From assembly GCF_003003355.1 (NCBI RefSeq), contig NZ_PVTQ01000008.1:1-64000 (forward strand): a stretch of DNA of 64,000 bases, in the 5' to 3' direction. This document shows, in pieces, positions 31,737 through 39,617 of this stretch (positions are counted from its first letter, which is position 1; each line of letters starts with the position of its first letter). The position numbers and the translations under genes were made by a program. The notes under the pieces are model-generated. The model searched no databases and was not told the origin of the DNA. It worked only from the letters and a program-made list of their open reading frames with translations. This stretch comes from Donghicola tyrosinivorans (lineage in GTDB: Bacteria > Pseudomonadota > Alphaproteobacteria > Rhodobacterales > Rhodobacteraceae).

Positions 31737-34613
31737 TTATCTGTATTCGCCAAGCATGATATCGAGCGTCACCGTCCCCACATCGCCGTTATAGTACTCG
31801 TCGAGCAGCAGATAATCGAAACTGTCTACAATCTTCTGCCCCGCTATCAAATCACCTATGCCATCCACTCCGGCTGTTTCATAGGTGAAGCTGCCATCCT
31901 CATATAGCGTAACAACGCCGCCCTTATCGGTGGAGAATGTCGCGGAATTAGAAGTGTCCGTGAGCAAGGTAGTAATGTTTTTATCCGGATCTGCATCAAA
32001 GACTGCCATGGGCACCGCAATCAACTCGTCACCGGACATGTGCGGGGTGTCATTGGTCAGAAGGCCAAAGTGTTGGGGAATATTCCAATCGAGACCGACA
32101 TAGTGATATACGGGATAGCTGTCATCTGTCGCATCTGGATTGTCATCGACCCCGTCAAGTTTCAGCGTAATCGTTCCGGTTGACGACTGTCCTGCCTGGT
32201 TCTCGACTGTGAAATCAAAGGTGTCGGTGAAGCTTTCCCCGGCGTTCAGCAGCGCGGTTTCCTTGGTGTAGGGCGCATAGTAGCTGAATGAGCTGTTTTC
32301 GGCGACAAAGACCGTGCCACCTTTGTCAGTTCTGATGCTGGAACTACCTTCGGTAGCGAAATCCATGGTCAGAACATCTGTCGCGGCCCCCTTCTGAACG
32401 TGATCGAACAGGGTGTCGTCATTGCCGGAATTCAGTCGCATACCTGTGCGGGGCGACGTGTCTTCGACATCTTCATAGGTGTAGTCATTGGAAATCGGCG
32501 CGATGGTCTCGGCTGCCCCCGCGACAAGAATGCCAATCTCGGCCGTGGCCGTATCCTTGTCACTTTCCTCAATGGTGTATTGGAAAGAGTCGGTCAGGAA
32601 CTGGCCTTCTTCCAACGCTTCAATCACCGATGAGGACGTTGGATCATACACAAAGCTGCCATCGGCGTTCAGGCTAAGGGTGGCCCCCGTGGTGGCCGAG
32701 GTCAGTACCTGCGGTTTTGCGGCGATGGTATGCCCTGCGTTGCCATCTGTCGTGTCATTTGCCAGCACGCCAGAGGCGGCATCCACCGTCAGCACGACAC
32801 CCTCTGAGGCGCTATAGCTATCGGGCGAGGCGGTCGGCAGATCGGCAACGCCAGTGACCTCAATCCTCACTGTCGCGGTGTCCGTCTGCGAATTCTGATC
32901 AATGACAGTATAGCTAAAGGTGTCTTGCACCTTTTCACCTTCTGCCAACTCATCCAGAGCTTGCGAGGTTGTCTGATCATAGATGAACCAGCCATCGTTT
33001 CTAAAGACAACTGTCGCGCCATAGGCCGTTGTCACCGTTCCCGGGACCAACGACAAGGTGTCGCCAACGGTTCCCGGAATGTCATTATCGAGAAGTCGGT
33101 CGCTGCCCAACGCAACGTCAGTTTCCAGCACTGCGAAATGTAAATCATCAACCGCAGTGGGCAGCTCATATCGGCCAGAGACGTTGACAAAGGCGGTGCC
33201 GAAGGCCGTATCTCCATCAGGCTCTTCTACGGTGTAGGAAAAGCGATCTACCTCAACTTGGCCTTCGTTCAACCCCTGCAAAGCCGCAGAGCCTGTGGGA
33301 TCATAGGTAAAGCTGCCATCAGCGTTCATAGTAACCCGCGCGCCCAAGGCAGAGAACCCAGTGATCGCCTGAACCGTCAGCGACGGTGTACCAATGGTCG
33401 AGGTGTCATTGGACAAAAGGCCCGGAACTACGGAGACGGTCAGAACTTCATCTTCGGAAATCGTATAATAATCGTCAGCGGCCACCGGCACATCGTCGAT
33501 GCCGTTGACGGTGATCCGGCCAACGGCCTCATCGGTGCCGCCGAATACATCGGTGATCCGGTAGCGGAAGGTCACCTCAGCGCTCTGCCCGCTGGACAGA
33601 CCCGTAAACGCGGTACTGCTGTCAAAGGTGTAATTGCCCGTGTTCGCATCCATCACCAGCGTACCTTGCGCGGGGCCCCAGATCACCTCGACCTTGTCCA
33701 CCAGATGGGCGTTCACATCATTCGACAGAACCGAGCCCAAGACCGTCACGGGCGCATCTTCCTGCACGGTGACGTGATCATTCACTGCCTCGACCAGCGT
33801 CGGCAACACAGAGTTGTCCACCATGACCTGCAGGTTCTCGAAGCCGCGCACTTTCAGATTGGTGGTGGCCAGCCTGAAGACCGTATTGTCATGCTCGCCT
33901 GTGACGGGGTCGGTGTGGTCGGCCATCGCCTCGGCCAGCGCCAGAATGTCAGCCTTGATATCGGCCCGTGCCCATTCGGCTGCGGTCAGTTTGATCCGCA
34001 GGTAATCCACCCCGCGACCGCCGTTATAGATGTTGTGGAACCCGACGTTCTCGCCCCAGTCGAAGACCCCCAGATCGTCGCCTGCGCCACCGAACACGCG
34101 GTCATTGCCACGGCCCCCGTCCAGCACATCGCCGCCCGCGCCACCCTTCAGGGTATCGCGCCCCTCACCGCCGTGCAGCATGTCGTTGCCCGACCCGCCA
34201 TTCAGCGAGTCATGCCCGACGCCCCCGTCCAGATAATCACGGCCAGAGCCGCCGACCAGCTTGTCCTGACCAAAGCCGCCATAGATGGTGTCATCGCCCG
34301 CACCGCCGTAAAGGCGATCGTTGTCGTAGATGATTTTGCGCAGGTATTCCTCAAGCGTCATGGTCCGGTAGTCTTCTGGGCCCACGTCCTCGCTACCGAT
34401 CAACAGGTCATTGCCAGCGCCGCCACCCATCACGTCGCTGCCCGCACCGCCAAGTAGGGTGTCATTCCCGTTTCCGCCCGCCAGAGTATCCCAACCCCCG
34501 ACGCCCCAGAGAATGTCATCACCCTCATAGCCCGACATCTTATCCTTCCAGCCGTAGCCGTGGATATTGTCGCTCTCGACCGTGCCTTTTGTGTATCTTA
34601 ATTTCGTCGTCAT
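31737..34613 (-). CDS. Large RTX/VCBS-repeat exoprotein
   Basis: A 958-residue acidic protein without a Sec signal. Residues about 20-165 hold hemolysin-type calcium-binding nonapeptides (GGxGxDxLx, e.g. GGNGNDTLLGGAGSDVMGG). From about 285 to the end there are six or more VCBS/cadherin-like repeats of about 100 residues, each with an 'SNDT' or 'NDxxG' bend and a 'DGSFTYDP' strand. The order is unusual because RTX blocks normally sit at the C-terminus next to the type I secretion signal. It is probably a secreted or surface adhesin. An AAGG site precedes the ATG. No type I transporter genes are nearby. Confidence 0.85.
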   Translation of the reverse strand: MTTKLRYTKGTVESDNIHGYGWKDKMSGYEGDDILWGVGGWDTLAGGNGNDTLLGGAGSDVMGGGAGNDLLIGSEDVGPEDYRTMTLEEYLRKIIYDNDRLYGGAGDDTIYGGFGQDKLVGGSGRDYLDGGVGHDSLNGGSGNDMLHGGEGRDTLKGGAGGDVLDGGRGNDRVFGGAGDDLGVFDWGENVGFHNIYNGGRGVDYLRIKLTAAEWARADIKADILALAEAMADHTDPVTGEHDNTVFRLATTNLKVRGFENLQVMVDNSVLPTLVEAVNDHVTVQEDAPVTVLGSVLSNDVNAHLVDKVEVIWGPAQGTLVMDANTGNYTFDSSTAFTGLSSGQSAEVTFRYRITDVFGGTDEAVGRITVNGIDDVPVAADDYYTISEDEVLTVSVVPGLLSNDTSTIGTPSLTVQAITGFSALGARVTMNADGSFTYDPTGSAALQGLNEGQVEVDRFSYTVEEPDGDTAFGTAFVNVSGRYELPTAVDDLHFAVLETDVALGSDRLLDNDIPGTVGDTLSLVPGTVTTAYGATVVFRNDGWFIYDQTTSQALDELAEGEKVQDTFSYTVIDQNSQTDTATVRIEVTGVADLPTASPDSYSASEGVVLTVDAASGVLANDTTDGNAGHTIAAKPQVLTSATTGATLSLNADGSFVYDPTSSSVIEALEEGQFLTDSFQYTIEESDKDTATAEIGILVAGAAETIAPISNDYTYEDVEDTSPRTGMRLNSGNDDTLFDHVQKGAATDVLTMDFATEGSSSIRTDKGGTVFVAENSSFSYYAPYTKETALLNAGESFTDTFDFTVENQAGQSSTGTITLKLDGVDDNPDATDDSYPVYHYVGLDWNIPQHFGLLTNDTPHMSGDELIAVPMAVFDADPDKNITTLLTDTSNSATFSTDKGGVVTLYEDGSFTYETAGVDGIGDLIAGQKIVDSFDYLLLDEYYNGDVGTVTLDIMLGEYR

Positions 34614-34902: not shown

Positions 34903-35172
34903 TTGGAAATCGCAATACCTTATGCAGCGAATAAAACTTGGAAAATGGCGTAACCCTGAAACGGGGCCCTCCCGATATAATTGCAGAACTTAATACGGCC
35001 ATCAGACAACAAGGCACGATTGCCGGTTATTCACCCTGCAAATATTTCTCTTTCACAACAATGTGTTGACCCGCATCAAAGACTCGGGCGGCTTTGGAGA
35101 GTTTCATTCCTATGTCATGGGAACAGTCCCCAAGCCCCGCGGAACGTCCCGTATGATCCGGAGATTTTAGCA

Positions 35173-35910
35173 ATGCATATTCATACCAATCCCAGCACCA
35201 ACCTAATAACCGTCTCGCCCGAGGGCGCGATCTCGGCCGAGGATATCGCGGAACTGAAACAGGCGGCGAATGACTATATCAACGCCAACGACCGTGTTCC
35301 AAACCTGCTGATCCACGCCAAATCCTTTCCCGGATGGAAGGATTTCTCGGCCATGACGCGCCACATCCAGTTCGTGCGCAACCACCAGAAGATGATCTCG
35401 AAGGTGGCGCTTGTGGGGGATGGCGTCCTGCTGAACCTGTTGCCGCCGCTGGCGGATGTCTTCGTCTCGGCACGCCTGCGGCATTTCCCGGAAAAGGCAC
35501 TGGATCAAGCCAAAGCATGGCTGACCTCCCATGAGACCAGCAAGGGCGGGTTCAAACTGCTCAGCGGCTTTCCCAACGACGTGATCGCTCTGGATGTTGT
35601 GGGCACGATCTCGTCCGAGGTCTACCGCGACATGCTGGTACCTCTGGTCTCGGAAAAGCTGAAACGCCATGACAAGCTAAAGACCCTTGTGCGGATCGGG
35701 CCCGATTTCGAAGGCTACACCGCTGGCGCGGTCTGGGATGATGCGCGGCTGGGGCTTGGGCATCTGACGACCTTCACCAAGGTGGCGCTGGTCACGGACG
35801 TCGACTGGCTGCGCCACAGCACCAAATTCTTTGGTCACCTGACCCCCGCCCAAGTCATGGTCTTTGACATGGACGACATGCCCGACGCCGCGGCCTGGAT
35901 CCGCACGTAA
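35173..35910 (+). CDS. Tandem SpoIIAA-like (STAS-fold) protein
   Basis: A 245-residue cytoplasmic protein made of two SpoIIAA-like (PF11964-type) domains. The second (about 120-245) carries the clear pattern RIGPDFEGYTAGAVWDDARLGLGHL and VALVTDVDWLRHSTKFFG. The first (1-118) keeps FPGWKDFSAMTRHIQFV and KVALVGDGVLLNLLPPLADVF but is divergent. Such proteins are widespread in marine bacteria and may bind membranes or lipids; function unknown. The ATG at 35173 has GGAG 9 nt upstream; the open frame continues further upstream through non-coding-looking sequence. Confidence 0.8.
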   Translation: MHIHTNPSTNLITVSPEGAISAEDIAELKQAANDYINANDRVPNLLIHAKSFPGWKDFSAMTRHIQFVRNHQKMISKVALVGDGVLLNLLPPLADVFVSARLRHFPEKALDQAKAWLTSHETSKGGFKLLSGFPNDVIALDVVGTISSEVYRDMLVPLVSEKLKRHDKLKTLVRIGPDFEGYTAGAVWDDARLGLGHLTTFTKVALVTDVDWLRHSTKFFGHLTPAQVMVFDMDDMPDAAAWIRT

Positions 35911-36724: not shown

Positions 36725-36816
36725 GAGAAAAATAAAGGCGACGCACTAGGGAGGAGGAGAAGTGCGTCGCCTGAATATCAAAGATGCCGGTCAGGGAGGA
36801 GGAGGACCGCATCTCT
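36725..36816 (-). ncRNA. Tandem cuckoo/CcsR-like sRNA (CCUCCUCC-loop hairpins)
   Basis: On the minus strand two hairpins follow each other. Hairpin 1 (36814 to 36782) pairs AGATGC with GCATCT and GGTC with GACC around a loop with CTCCTCCTCCCT. Hairpin 2 (36771 to 36737) has an 11-bp perfect stem (GGCGACGCACT/AGTGCGTCGCC) around TCTCCTCCTCCCT and is followed by TTTATTTTTC, a good terminator. Loops presenting CCUCCUCC, which can pair with Shine-Dalgarno sequences, are the hallmark of alphaproteobacterial cuckoo RNAs, including the stress-induced CcsR RNAs of Rhodobacter. The DUF1127 gene often found upstream is absent here. Confidence 0.75.
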
Positions 36817-36823
36817 GGGGGCT

Positions 36824-36851
36824 ATATGGCGCGTGAAGCTTGCGCTAACAA
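36824..36851 (-). promoter_or_regulatory. Possible RpoH-type promoter of the sRNA
   Basis: Minus strand: TTGTTA (36851-36846), 16 nt, CCATAT (36829-36824). The -10 element resembles the CCCATNT of heat-shock sigma factors. A start about 7 nt later would fall at 36816, exactly at the foot of hairpin 1. Confidence 0.45.
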
Positions 36852-36944
36852 CTGACGATGCCGCAAAGCCGCTATGCGCCTACCGAAAGGCTACAGCAGA
36901 TGTCAGGTTCAGGGCCGGTGAGTGCCGCCAGTCAGCCGCGAAGC

Positions 36945-39617
36945 CTAATATCCCAAATGTAAGGGGCTGCGCAGGTCATAACCGATTTTGATCAGGTTAT
37001 CGAAAACGTCAGAGGTCTTCATCGGGCGGCCATGTAGAAAGCCCTGCTGCTCTACCGAGCTCATATGATGGATCATCCGCCCTTGTGCAGGGGTTTCAAT
37101 CCCCTCGGCAATGGTCTTGATCCCCAGTTTCCCCGCCATGATCGCGGTCGAGCGGACAACTTCCAGCGTTTTATTGTCCGACACGACCCGCTGGACCAGT
37201 GATTTGTCCAGCTTGATAACATCGATGGGCAGCTCGGCCAAACGGTTCAGGTTGCTGGCCTGAATCCCGAAGTCATCGAGCGCGATCAATATCCCCTCCC
37301 GCCGCAAATCTTGCAGATTGCGGATTACGCTGCCCATATCCACGCGCTCGGTCAGGGCCTTTTCTGACAGTTCGATCACGAAGATCCGACCCGGAACATC
37401 GCGAATACTGCTGAACTGATCAAGCAGGATCCGACTAGCCCCAGCAGTATTAAGTTCCTCAACGTGATGGTTGAAGCTGATGTAGCGGTCGTCAAAGTAG
37501 GTCAGATCACGCACCGTCCGCAGCCGTAGGTCCAGCATGAGTTCGCGGAACTCGGGATTTTTGACGGCCTCATAAAGCCGAGACGAAAATGTACTGGGCG
37601 AGATCGTCGTGCCGTCGGCGCGTTCCCAGCGGATCAGCGCCTCGAACCCGCTGATGTTGTTGCGCTTTGTGTTCATGATGGGCTGGACAGCGTAATACAT
37701 CTCTTTGTTGACCAGCGCGTCATAGATATCCCGTTCGGTGACGAAACGGCCTTCTTCCTCGCATTTCCTGATGTAGGCAGGGGTCGCCAAAGTCACCTTG
37801 TCGCGCCCCGACCGCTTGGAATCCACCAAGGCAACATCAGCTTGGGCCAAGGCATCCGACAGGCTGTCATCCGACTTGAAAGCAGACACACCGATGCTGG
37901 CGGAACGAGACAGGCTGCCATCTTCGGTTTCAAGTTCCAAGGCGGCGATGGACGCTCTTATCTTTTCCGCATAGCTGCTGATTTCATCCCAGTCGCTCAT
38001 CGGACGGATGATCACGAATTCCTCGCCCCCGAGCCGCCCTGCGACGCCGTGATCGTCCACCAGATCGGACAGCACCCCGCCGCAAGAGGCCAGCAGCCGG
38101 TCGCCGACATCGTGACCATAGCCGTCATTCACCGATTTGAACTGGTCCAGATCGATCAGAAACAAAGCCTGGTCCTCTTTCCCGCGCGTCTCGCAGTGAT
38201 GGTTGATGCCGCGGCGGGACAGAACGCCAGTCAGATCATCTACCATCAGCTGCTTTTCCAGCCCCGCGCGGGTCTTTTCGATGACGGTCACATCCACATA
38301 GTTCAGAACGATAAAGCGTTCGTTCTTGTCGGCCGTGATGGTCACCAGACTGAATTCAACCTGATAGCGCCGCCCGTTCTGGTGATCCTGCTTGGGCAGC
38401 ACCAAGCTTTGGGTGCCCGCTTCAAGCGCGTTCAGGATGCGTTTCAGGTTCAACTTGGCAACGCTGACGTAGTTGGGCCGGAAAACCTTTTCCAAACATT
38501 TGCCTTGCAGCGTTTCAGCCTTGTCCGAAGTCAGAACCGCCCCGTCCAGCCCCATATAGGCACTGTTCATATAGGCCAGTTCGATCTCCGGACCCAAACG
38601 CCACACCGCTGCGGGAACCGACTGATTGTCAAACAGCGCAGTCAGTTCGTTTTGCCGCTTGCGCATCAGCTCCTCGGTCAGGACAGTCTCTGTGATATCG
38701 TTCCACGATGACAGCCACAGCACCTCTTCATCGGCCTCAATGCAGCCGACAGAGAAAATAAAATGCCGCGTCTCACCATTCGGGCAAGTGATACTGGCTT
38801 TATGGTTGCCCACCGCCTTCAAAGCCGGAACCGAGTCATCTGGCTGGTCAACTATGACCTCGAACCTCTCGGGGTCGGCGTCGCTGACACGGGATTTACT
38901 GCCCACACACAGCTCTAGCCCCAGAAAATCGAATAGCTCTGTGGCAGGCTTGTTGAATTCCAGCACCCTCAGATCTGGGTCGCGGATGATGACGCCCGCA
39001 TTGGTATGCTCCAGATAAGCGCGGGACAGGTGACGGGTCCGCTGTAGTTGCTGGTTCACACGCGCCAGATCGTCATTCGCATCGGACATCTGCCGCCGCT
39101 GCTGGTTGATCGTTGTGCGCGTCCACTCAGCCAACAGCACCATGTTGCCGTAGCCAATCAAATATAGCACCAGATGCACCGGCTGGATGTCCGGCGACTG
39201 CAATGGAGAAGCCGCCAGCAGGATAAAACCCACCACCGCCATCGCGCGGGCTTTGGACCGCCTTAGGCAACCATAGCCAAAGGACATCCCCATGACCTGC
39301 GCCAGCCCCGCCATAAGGCCCCAATCCGCGAACGCGAAATACACCAGCACAAGCGCGCCAAACAGTGACGCCTCCAGCAACAATTGCCGCGCCGCGCCGA
39401 ACGACTGGGGGACCGAGAACAAAAGGCTGAAGAAACTGGCCAGAACCAGCCCGAAGGTTTGCGGCGTCAATCCGTTCGTCTGAACATCAATCACAACGCA
39501 AACAAGAGGCACTGCAGTGAAATACAGCAGGAATAGCCGACTGATCCCGACAAGGTTCTGAACAAGCATCAAGGGTTGCGGCAAAGGTGCTCTCTTTTGC
39601 GTCAGCGGATTTCCCAC
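36945..39617 (-). CDS. Membrane-bound PAS-GGDEF-EAL cyclic-di-GMP protein
   Basis: An 890-residue protein. About residues 20-165 form five or six membrane helices (MASE-like sensor). Next come a short coiled segment and two PAS domains (about 200-330 and 330-450). GGDEF (about 460-615) has the active-site variant RLGGEEF and DLDQFKSVNDGYGHDVGD. EAL (about 640-880) has GFEALIRWE, LDDFG, KLDKS and TIAEGIE, so the metal-binding acids and the lysine are kept. Both synthesis and breakdown of c-di-GMP are possible. The start is a GTG (39615-39617) without a good ribosome site; the ATG at 39567-39569 is an alternative. It sits next to the CheB/CheR genes. Confidence 0.88.
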   Translation of the reverse strand: MGNPLTQKRAPLPQPLMLVQNLVGISRLFLLYFTAVPLVCVVIDVQTNGLTPQTFGLVLASFFSLLFSVPQSFGAARQLLLEASLFGALVLVYFAFADWGLMAGLAQVMGMSFGYGCLRRSKARAMAVVGFILLAASPLQSPDIQPVHLVLYLIGYGNMVLLAEWTRTTINQQRRQMSDANDDLARVNQQLQRTRHLSRAYLEHTNAGVIIRDPDLRVLEFNKPATELFDFLGLELCVGSKSRVSDADPERFEVIVDQPDDSVPALKAVGNHKASITCPNGETRHFIFSVGCIEADEEVLWLSSWNDITETVLTEELMRKRQNELTALFDNQSVPAAVWRLGPEIELAYMNSAYMGLDGAVLTSDKAETLQGKCLEKVFRPNYVSVAKLNLKRILNALEAGTQSLVLPKQDHQNGRRYQVEFSLVTITADKNERFIVLNYVDVTVIEKTRAGLEKQLMVDDLTGVLSRRGINHHCETRGKEDQALFLIDLDQFKSVNDGYGHDVGDRLLASCGGVLSDLVDDHGVAGRLGGEEFVIIRPMSDWDEISSYAEKIRASIAALELETEDGSLSRSASIGVSAFKSDDSLSDALAQADVALVDSKRSGRDKVTLATPAYIRKCEEEGRFVTERDIYDALVNKEMYYAVQPIMNTKRNNISGFEALIRWERADGTTISPSTFSSRLYEAVKNPEFRELMLDLRLRTVRDLTYFDDRYISFNHHVEELNTAGASRILLDQFSSIRDVPGRIFVIELSEKALTERVDMGSVIRNLQDLRREGILIALDDFGIQASNLNRLAELPIDVIKLDKSLVQRVVSDNKTLEVVRSTAIMAGKLGIKTIAEGIETPAQGRMIHHMSSVEQQGFLHGRPMKTSDVFDNLIKIGYDLRSPLHLGY

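Follow-up and report, generated by a model that had tools for sequence, protein, structure and literature searches.

The cuckoo RNA family was reportedly described by Reinkensmeier and Giegerich in 2015. Its members consist of neighboring hairpins whose stems vary in sequence and whose loops share one motif (PMC3927594, PMC10746234). CcsR1-4 of Rhodobacter sphaeroides (RF02791) belong to the 3' part of the ccaF1 transcript, with two hairpins per RNA and CCUCCUCCC loops. The ccaF1-CcsR locus has an RpoHI/RpoHII promoter (PMC10253847), and CcsR acts on flhR (PMC8307010). In Sinorhizobium meliloti, ar14/NfeR1 (RF02344) has three hairpins with anti-Shine-Dalgarno loops and is present in multiple copies per genome. 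NfeR1 acts on transporter mRNAs and ntrBC, and it has its own promoter with an upstream box for the LysR-type regulator LsrB, which activates it from -72 to -60 (PMC10746234). The LsrB box of S. meliloti abcR1 is found at -61 to -49 (PMC8844928). The VtlR/LsrB consensus is given as GCAT-N3-TG-N3-T (PMC7486931, PMC8844928). In Brucella, VtlR activates DUF1127 genes (PMC12595884), and LsrB has been tied to the Rhizobiales (PMC11975290). Another S. meliloti sRNA, MmgR, is repressed by PhaR and acts on phasins.

The DNA analyzed here, referred to as the window, is a stretch of 64,000 nucleotides from Donghicola tyrosinivorans (NZ_PVTQ01000008.1, positions 1 to 64,000). A predicted sRNA of about 89 nt is located on its minus strand (36728..36816), with the start placed from promoter-like hexamers and the end from a T-rich tract. 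Between 36817 and 36728, the minus strand contains tandem stem-loops that expose CUCCUCCUCCCU in both loops. Hairpin 1 (36779..36817, minus strand) has a single bulged G. Hairpin 2 (36736..36772, minus strand) has a 12-bp stem and the loop UCUCCUCCUCCCU. It is followed by a terminator-like T-rich tract, TTTATTTTT (36728..36736, minus strand). The folding energy is -39.4 kcal/mol (z -8.3); 200 dinucleotide shuffles gave -16.95 +/- 2.7, and not one of them folded as well. A consensus scan called no terminator at this copy; its rule is for loops of 3-8 nt, and the loop of hairpin 2 has 13 nt. Upstream, a -10-like CATATA (36823..36828, minus strand) and a -35-like TTGTTA (36846..36851, minus strand) are separated by 17 nt, which would place the start at about 36816, at the foot of hairpin 1. 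The consensus scan called no promoter at the window copy. Both hairpins with their shared loop motif, the T-rich tract, the promoter-like hexamers with a start at the first hairpin, and the lack of an adjacent DUF1127 gene had been pointed out in an earlier, sequence-only reading of this DNA, and all were confirmed. That the stretch is a mere terminator, or part of a 127-codon ORF that is open at 36812-36429, is scarcely credible. A terminator would require neither two hairpins nor identical C-rich loops, and the start of the ORF is not conserved among sibling copies.

On sequence grounds, the window copy is a member of the known cuckoo (CcsR/ar14) anti-Shine-Dalgarno sRNA family, because its stems covary and because of its relatives; the same reading had proposed as much. 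It has two adjacent hairpins, each with a CCUCCUCCC loop, and its stems vary in sequence yet stay paired, with no difference in kind from the family as described in PMC3927594. Among 17 related sequences, 68 cells were changed on both sides of a pair, compared with 20.5 +/- 3.9 in shuffled alignments (0 of 500). Pairing holds in 90.7% of cells, which none of the 500 shuffles reached, and in at most 56.7% in slid registers. Both-side changes occur in 15 of 22 pairs, which was reached by 3 of 500 shuffles. One of the five covariation measures, the number of further pair types, was not outstanding (30 vs 27.2 shuffled, 66 of 500). Compared with the common sibling, hairpin 2 of the window copy shows two double changes plus a single one, with all pairs intact.

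The Rfam search of the window gave no match at the gathering threshold. A covariance model had been suggested as a check on the family assignment; ar14 and CcsR1 do match the window copy, both below their cut-offs (RF02344, 37.3 vs 58.8 bits; RF02791, 31.1 vs 65.3 bits). The genome's own DUF1127-linked array is also under the CcsR (RF02791) cut-off, at 49.7 bits, and one array stretch in a congener is above that of ar14, at 62.7 bits. The window copy resembles CcsR in having two hairpins per RNA with such loops, and Donghicola likewise possesses a DUF1127-linked array. It falls outside RF02791 by both score and DUF1127 linkage, lacking a DUF1127 gene and carrying a promoter-like sequence of its own. 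It shares with NfeR1 the anti-Shine-Dalgarno loops, the multiple copies per genome, and the layout of a predicted own promoter with a candidate LysR box upstream, and falls outside RF02344 by its score and by having two hairpins instead of three.

A Donghicola covariance model, R1, was built from 17 hairpin pairs (12 of 13 free-standing copies and five selected array units), all of which it recovers by construction. The thirteenth copy was left out since its letters are identical to another over the stretch. With up to 11 candidates scored per genome, R1 had matches with E-values of 1e-4 or below in 311 of the 394 genomes scanned from the family. A class-wide search matched 7 of 385 genomes, five of those within the same family, and the promoter comparison with the Rhizobiales therefore rests on papers. 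A loose pattern scan of the 394 genomes was discarded, as it matched 368 of them.

The loop 12-mer CTCCTCCYCCCT has 19 exact occurrences in the 4.68-Mb genome (reversed control, 0), all confined to eight tandem-hairpin loci. These are seven free-standing two-hairpin copies, with one on contig 8 (the window copy) and pairs on contigs 10, 13, and 27, and one array on contig 4. The array comprises eight hairpins, six of them with exact loops, and follows the gene for an 81-aa DUF1127 protein. Six further free-standing copies were identified in three congeners, for 13 in total. The window copy is thus not the orphan exception that it had been taken for, and the reading as a lone heat-shock orphan was dropped in view of the sibling promoters. 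A DNA search of other genomes gave a match in 1 of 57, and a search of named genomes with the hairpin-2 pattern matched four contigs, all from Donghicola eburneus or D. mangrovi, with the proviso that records close to the window's own may have been hidden from this search. The Donghicola copies are a genus-level expansion of the cuckoo family, with no difference in kind. One free-standing copy is syntenic between two species, where it adjoins an SMP-30-type gene. This pair excepted, the 13 copies have little similarity past about 170 nt.

Some Donghicola copies may be silent, since only one of the six NfeR1 loci in S. meliloti was reliably detected (PMC7143759). The window copy could itself be decaying, folding yet scarcely transcribed. 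Its R1 score of 89.5 bits is below those of the other six free-standing copies of the genome (96.7-108.6), its place is not conserved in the congener compared, and the left half of its LysR-type dyad, described below, is degenerate. Nonetheless, compensatory changes maintain its stems, both loops are intact, and a LysR-type box is present at one mismatch, so that silence or decay appears possible and rather unlikely.

RpoH-type promoters have CCAT at -10 and a CTTG-type -35. In the window copy the CATATA is preceded by C, hence the CCATAT on which the suggestion of a heat-shock-like promoter was based. Judged by the general consensus, no RpoH-type promoter is common to the siblings. Of the 13 free-standing copies, the window copy is the only one with CCAT at -10, and a single other copy has the C of a CTTG-type -35; the hexamers and -35 anchors of these copies, and of five loci from genomes lacking PhaR, were placed by eye. 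It was proposed that the window holds a free-standing CcsR with an RpoH heat-shock promoter and its own control near a c-di-GMP island. The 17-nt spacing of CCATAT and the TTG hexamer would agree with this, as would the RpoHI/RpoHII promoter of the R. sphaeroides locus. The siblings' promoters and the position of the locus, which is not conserved in a congener, make it quite improbable, and the heat-shock-like promoter is unsupported. Some use of RpoH is still conceivable, given the promoter of the R. sphaeroides locus.

The link to the c-di-GMP neighbor was likewise not borne out. The upstream gene encodes a PAS-GGDEF-EAL protein (36945..39617, minus strand, from a domain search), and the nearest GGDEF-EAL homolog in the congener, 51% identical, has no CTCCTCC loops alongside. 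The gene lies on the same strand and the sRNA would start about 130 nt past its stop codon, so the RNA could conceivably be a processing product of the GGDEF-EAL mRNA, released from its 3' end in the way that CcsR is cut from the ccaF1 mRNA. This is very unlikely, as the siblings differ in their upstream gene yet retain the promoter layout. Also near the locus is a protein with two SpoIIAA-like stretches (34981-35910, plus strand). The window further contains a 958-aa ORF (31737-34613, minus strand) that begins with repeats rich in glycine and aspartate (GGxGND-like, as judged by eye).

Upstream of the -35, the window copy has a candidate VtlR/LsrB-type LysR box, CGCATAGCGGCTTTG (36864..36878, minus strand), with one mismatch to the consensus, spanning about -62 to -48 relative to the inferred start. 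Among the 13 free-standing copies, the GCAT-N3-TG-N3-T box is exact in six (6 of the window copy's 12 siblings), has one mismatch in four, including the window copy, and two in three. In shuffles of the same 24-nt stretches, it was exact in 0% and had one mismatch in 1.1%. The distance from the box to the first loop is 61 nt in 10 of the 13 copies, 60 in the window copy, and 64 and 66 in two. When the entire 64-kb window was scanned at up to one mismatch, 0.31 matches were expected and 27 of 100 shuffles contained one. One match in 64 kb is thus not rare by itself, and the argument is its position.

A similar arrangement was found in other genera, in 88 loci (28 + 57 + 3) from 87 genomes; these are the best listed places of the model searches and a non-random sample. 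A relaxed 15-mer form of the box, defined after the loci had been inspected, is present at up to two mismatches in 84 of the 88, compared with 0.8% of shuffles. The literal Brucella VtlR motif, which fits the stretch in reverse reading (PMC12595884), is present at up to two mismatches in 67 of 88 (shuffles, 0.1%); the Donghicola arrays of genomes G000 and G002 fit it poorly, with 3 and 5 mismatches. The other-genus loci also contain a dyad, ATGCR-N5-YGCAT, which runs into GC(A/G)GCATTG and in most cases precedes a TTGTGC -35 by 37 or 38 nt. It has at least 4 of 5 symmetric pairs in 75 of 81 loci (shuffles, 9.6%), counting only loci where both promoter boxes, the second of them described below, were called. 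Among the 13 free-standing copies, only 6 have a dyad this strong. At its place in the window copy (36874..36888, minus strand), the right half, CGCAT, is kept, the left half is degenerate, and 3 of 5 pairs are symmetric. Because GCAT-N3-TG-N3-T is found in the siblings and the relaxed box in 84 of 88 other-genus loci, a putative VtlR/LsrB-like LysR activator probably drives cuckoo RNAs across the Rhodobacteraceae. The tie of LsrB to the Rhizobiales (PMC11975290) speaks against such an activator here. A literature search with many journals outside its coverage found no statement of VtlR/LsrB control of such RNAs in this family.

A DUF1127 ORF ends within 400 nt upstream in 73 of the 88 other-genus loci. 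The test used a profile built from the same loci on the same strand only, and would miss diverged or downstream genes. In 15 of 88 the ORF is absent, and 10 of those have two hairpins; free-standing loci are a minority, though not new. The ten are L182, L205, L206, L213, L215, L219, L234, L245, L246, and L254, and L182 has a DUF1127 ORF downstream. In the most economical reading, a single old LysR circuit would govern DUF1127 genes as well as anti-Shine-Dalgarno RNAs.

An exact CTGCNNNGCAG palindrome lies beside the -35 in five of the seven free-standing copies of the genome, overlaps the LysR-type box, and is absent from the window copy. It is of the CTGC-N3-GCAG type, which is the published R. 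sphaeroides PhaR site (PMC12542648). The other genera have a second box, TTGTGCAnnYGCAGCA, over the -35 (loci L104-L131, L181-L183, and L199-L255). In PhaR-bearing genomes, 81 of 88 loci had calls for both boxes (reversed control, 0); none of the five PhaR-lacking genomes that are at least 97% complete did, a comparison of five genomes uncorrected for relatedness. Genome G162 (L170), whose loops are without the search string, was counted as a miss unscanned, and a separate look found no such boxes there. Both boxes are present in 4 of 5 PhaR-lacking genomes less than 90% complete, where phaR may merely be unsequenced. The gene is present in 379 of 394 genomes of the family, and a first test was uninformative, as all 32 genomes in it carry phaR.

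PhaR, a sensor of polyhydroxybutyrate stores, could repress the copies through CTGC-N3-GCAG sites, as it does mmgR in S. meliloti. The five of seven copies with the site, a phasin-like gene carrying two such sites, and the contrast between PhaR-bearing and near-complete PhaR-lacking genomes favor such control. It is unlikely as the explanation of the locus: the window copy has no site, the palindrome overlaps a LysR box that is kept at one mismatch in 3 of 5 near-complete PhaR-lacking genomes, the less complete PhaR-lacking genomes mostly have the boxes, and the contrast rests on five genomes. PhaR was dropped as the main regulator, since PhaR-lacking genomes retain the upstream LysR-type dyad, and is a possible second input. 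The second box may mark PhaR input or a site of LysR activation. MmgR is a possible parallel to the Donghicola copies only; PhaR control of these is putative, and common descent is not implied. The phasin-like gene, on contig 1, narrowly misses the Pfam cut-off (24.0 vs 24.9 bits). Its promoter region (L056:1329-1377) has two CTGCNNNGCAG sites flanking a TTGATT / CATATT pair, and at its 3' end (L056:1885-1965) CCCUCCCUCCC precedes a terminator-like hairpin (fold z -4.0).

Taken together, the locus is fairly probably best explained as a free-standing cuckoo sRNA with a sigma-70-like promoter, a VtlR/LsrB-type activator, and C-rich loops that repress mRNAs. Transcription would begin at hairpin 1 from the sigma-70-like promoter and end at hairpin 2. 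A LysR activator of the VtlR/LsrB kind would bind the box just upstream of the -35 and recruit polymerase. The C-rich loops could then pair with purine-rich ribosome-binding sites and lower the translation of several mRNAs; that they block such sites is proposed by analogy with the known members. The scarcity of perfect extended targets counts against this: GGGAGGAGG-N-ATG had three matches vs one in the control. One of the three is the complement of a sibling hairpin, and none is put forward as a target.

The window copy is one more member of a known family, and the shared, probable LysR control is the most useful yield of the analysis. CcsR of Rhodobacter is described as RpoH-controlled, yet in Rhodobacteraceae the promoters of these RNAs have a box of the type expected for a LysR regulator. 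In rhizobia and brucellae, that regulator is known to govern DUF1127 genes and anti-Shine-Dalgarno RNAs alike. If a single regulator were in charge of the two, the recurrent co-occurrence of the DUF1127 protein and the RNA would be explained. Tentatively, and with slightly less than even confidence, the Rhodobacteraceae cuckoo RNAs and their DUF1127 partner could be placed in an old VtlR/LsrB regulon with the AbcR, NfeR1, and DUF1127 genes of the Rhizobiales, and an additional operator located at the -35 may link these RNAs to PhaR and carbon storage. In Donghicola, this circuit would have given rise to at least seven free-standing RNAs, each driven separately and released from the protein partner, of which single copies, the window's for example, could drift to new control. 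With its seven parallel copies, this genome offers a natural series in which dosage and divergence could be compared. Of the free-standing copies, six are arranged in pairs about 5 to 24 kb apart. Every one of the 19 loop motifs lies on the minus strand of its contig (4, 8, 10, 13, or 27), the orientation of the contigs being arbitrary.
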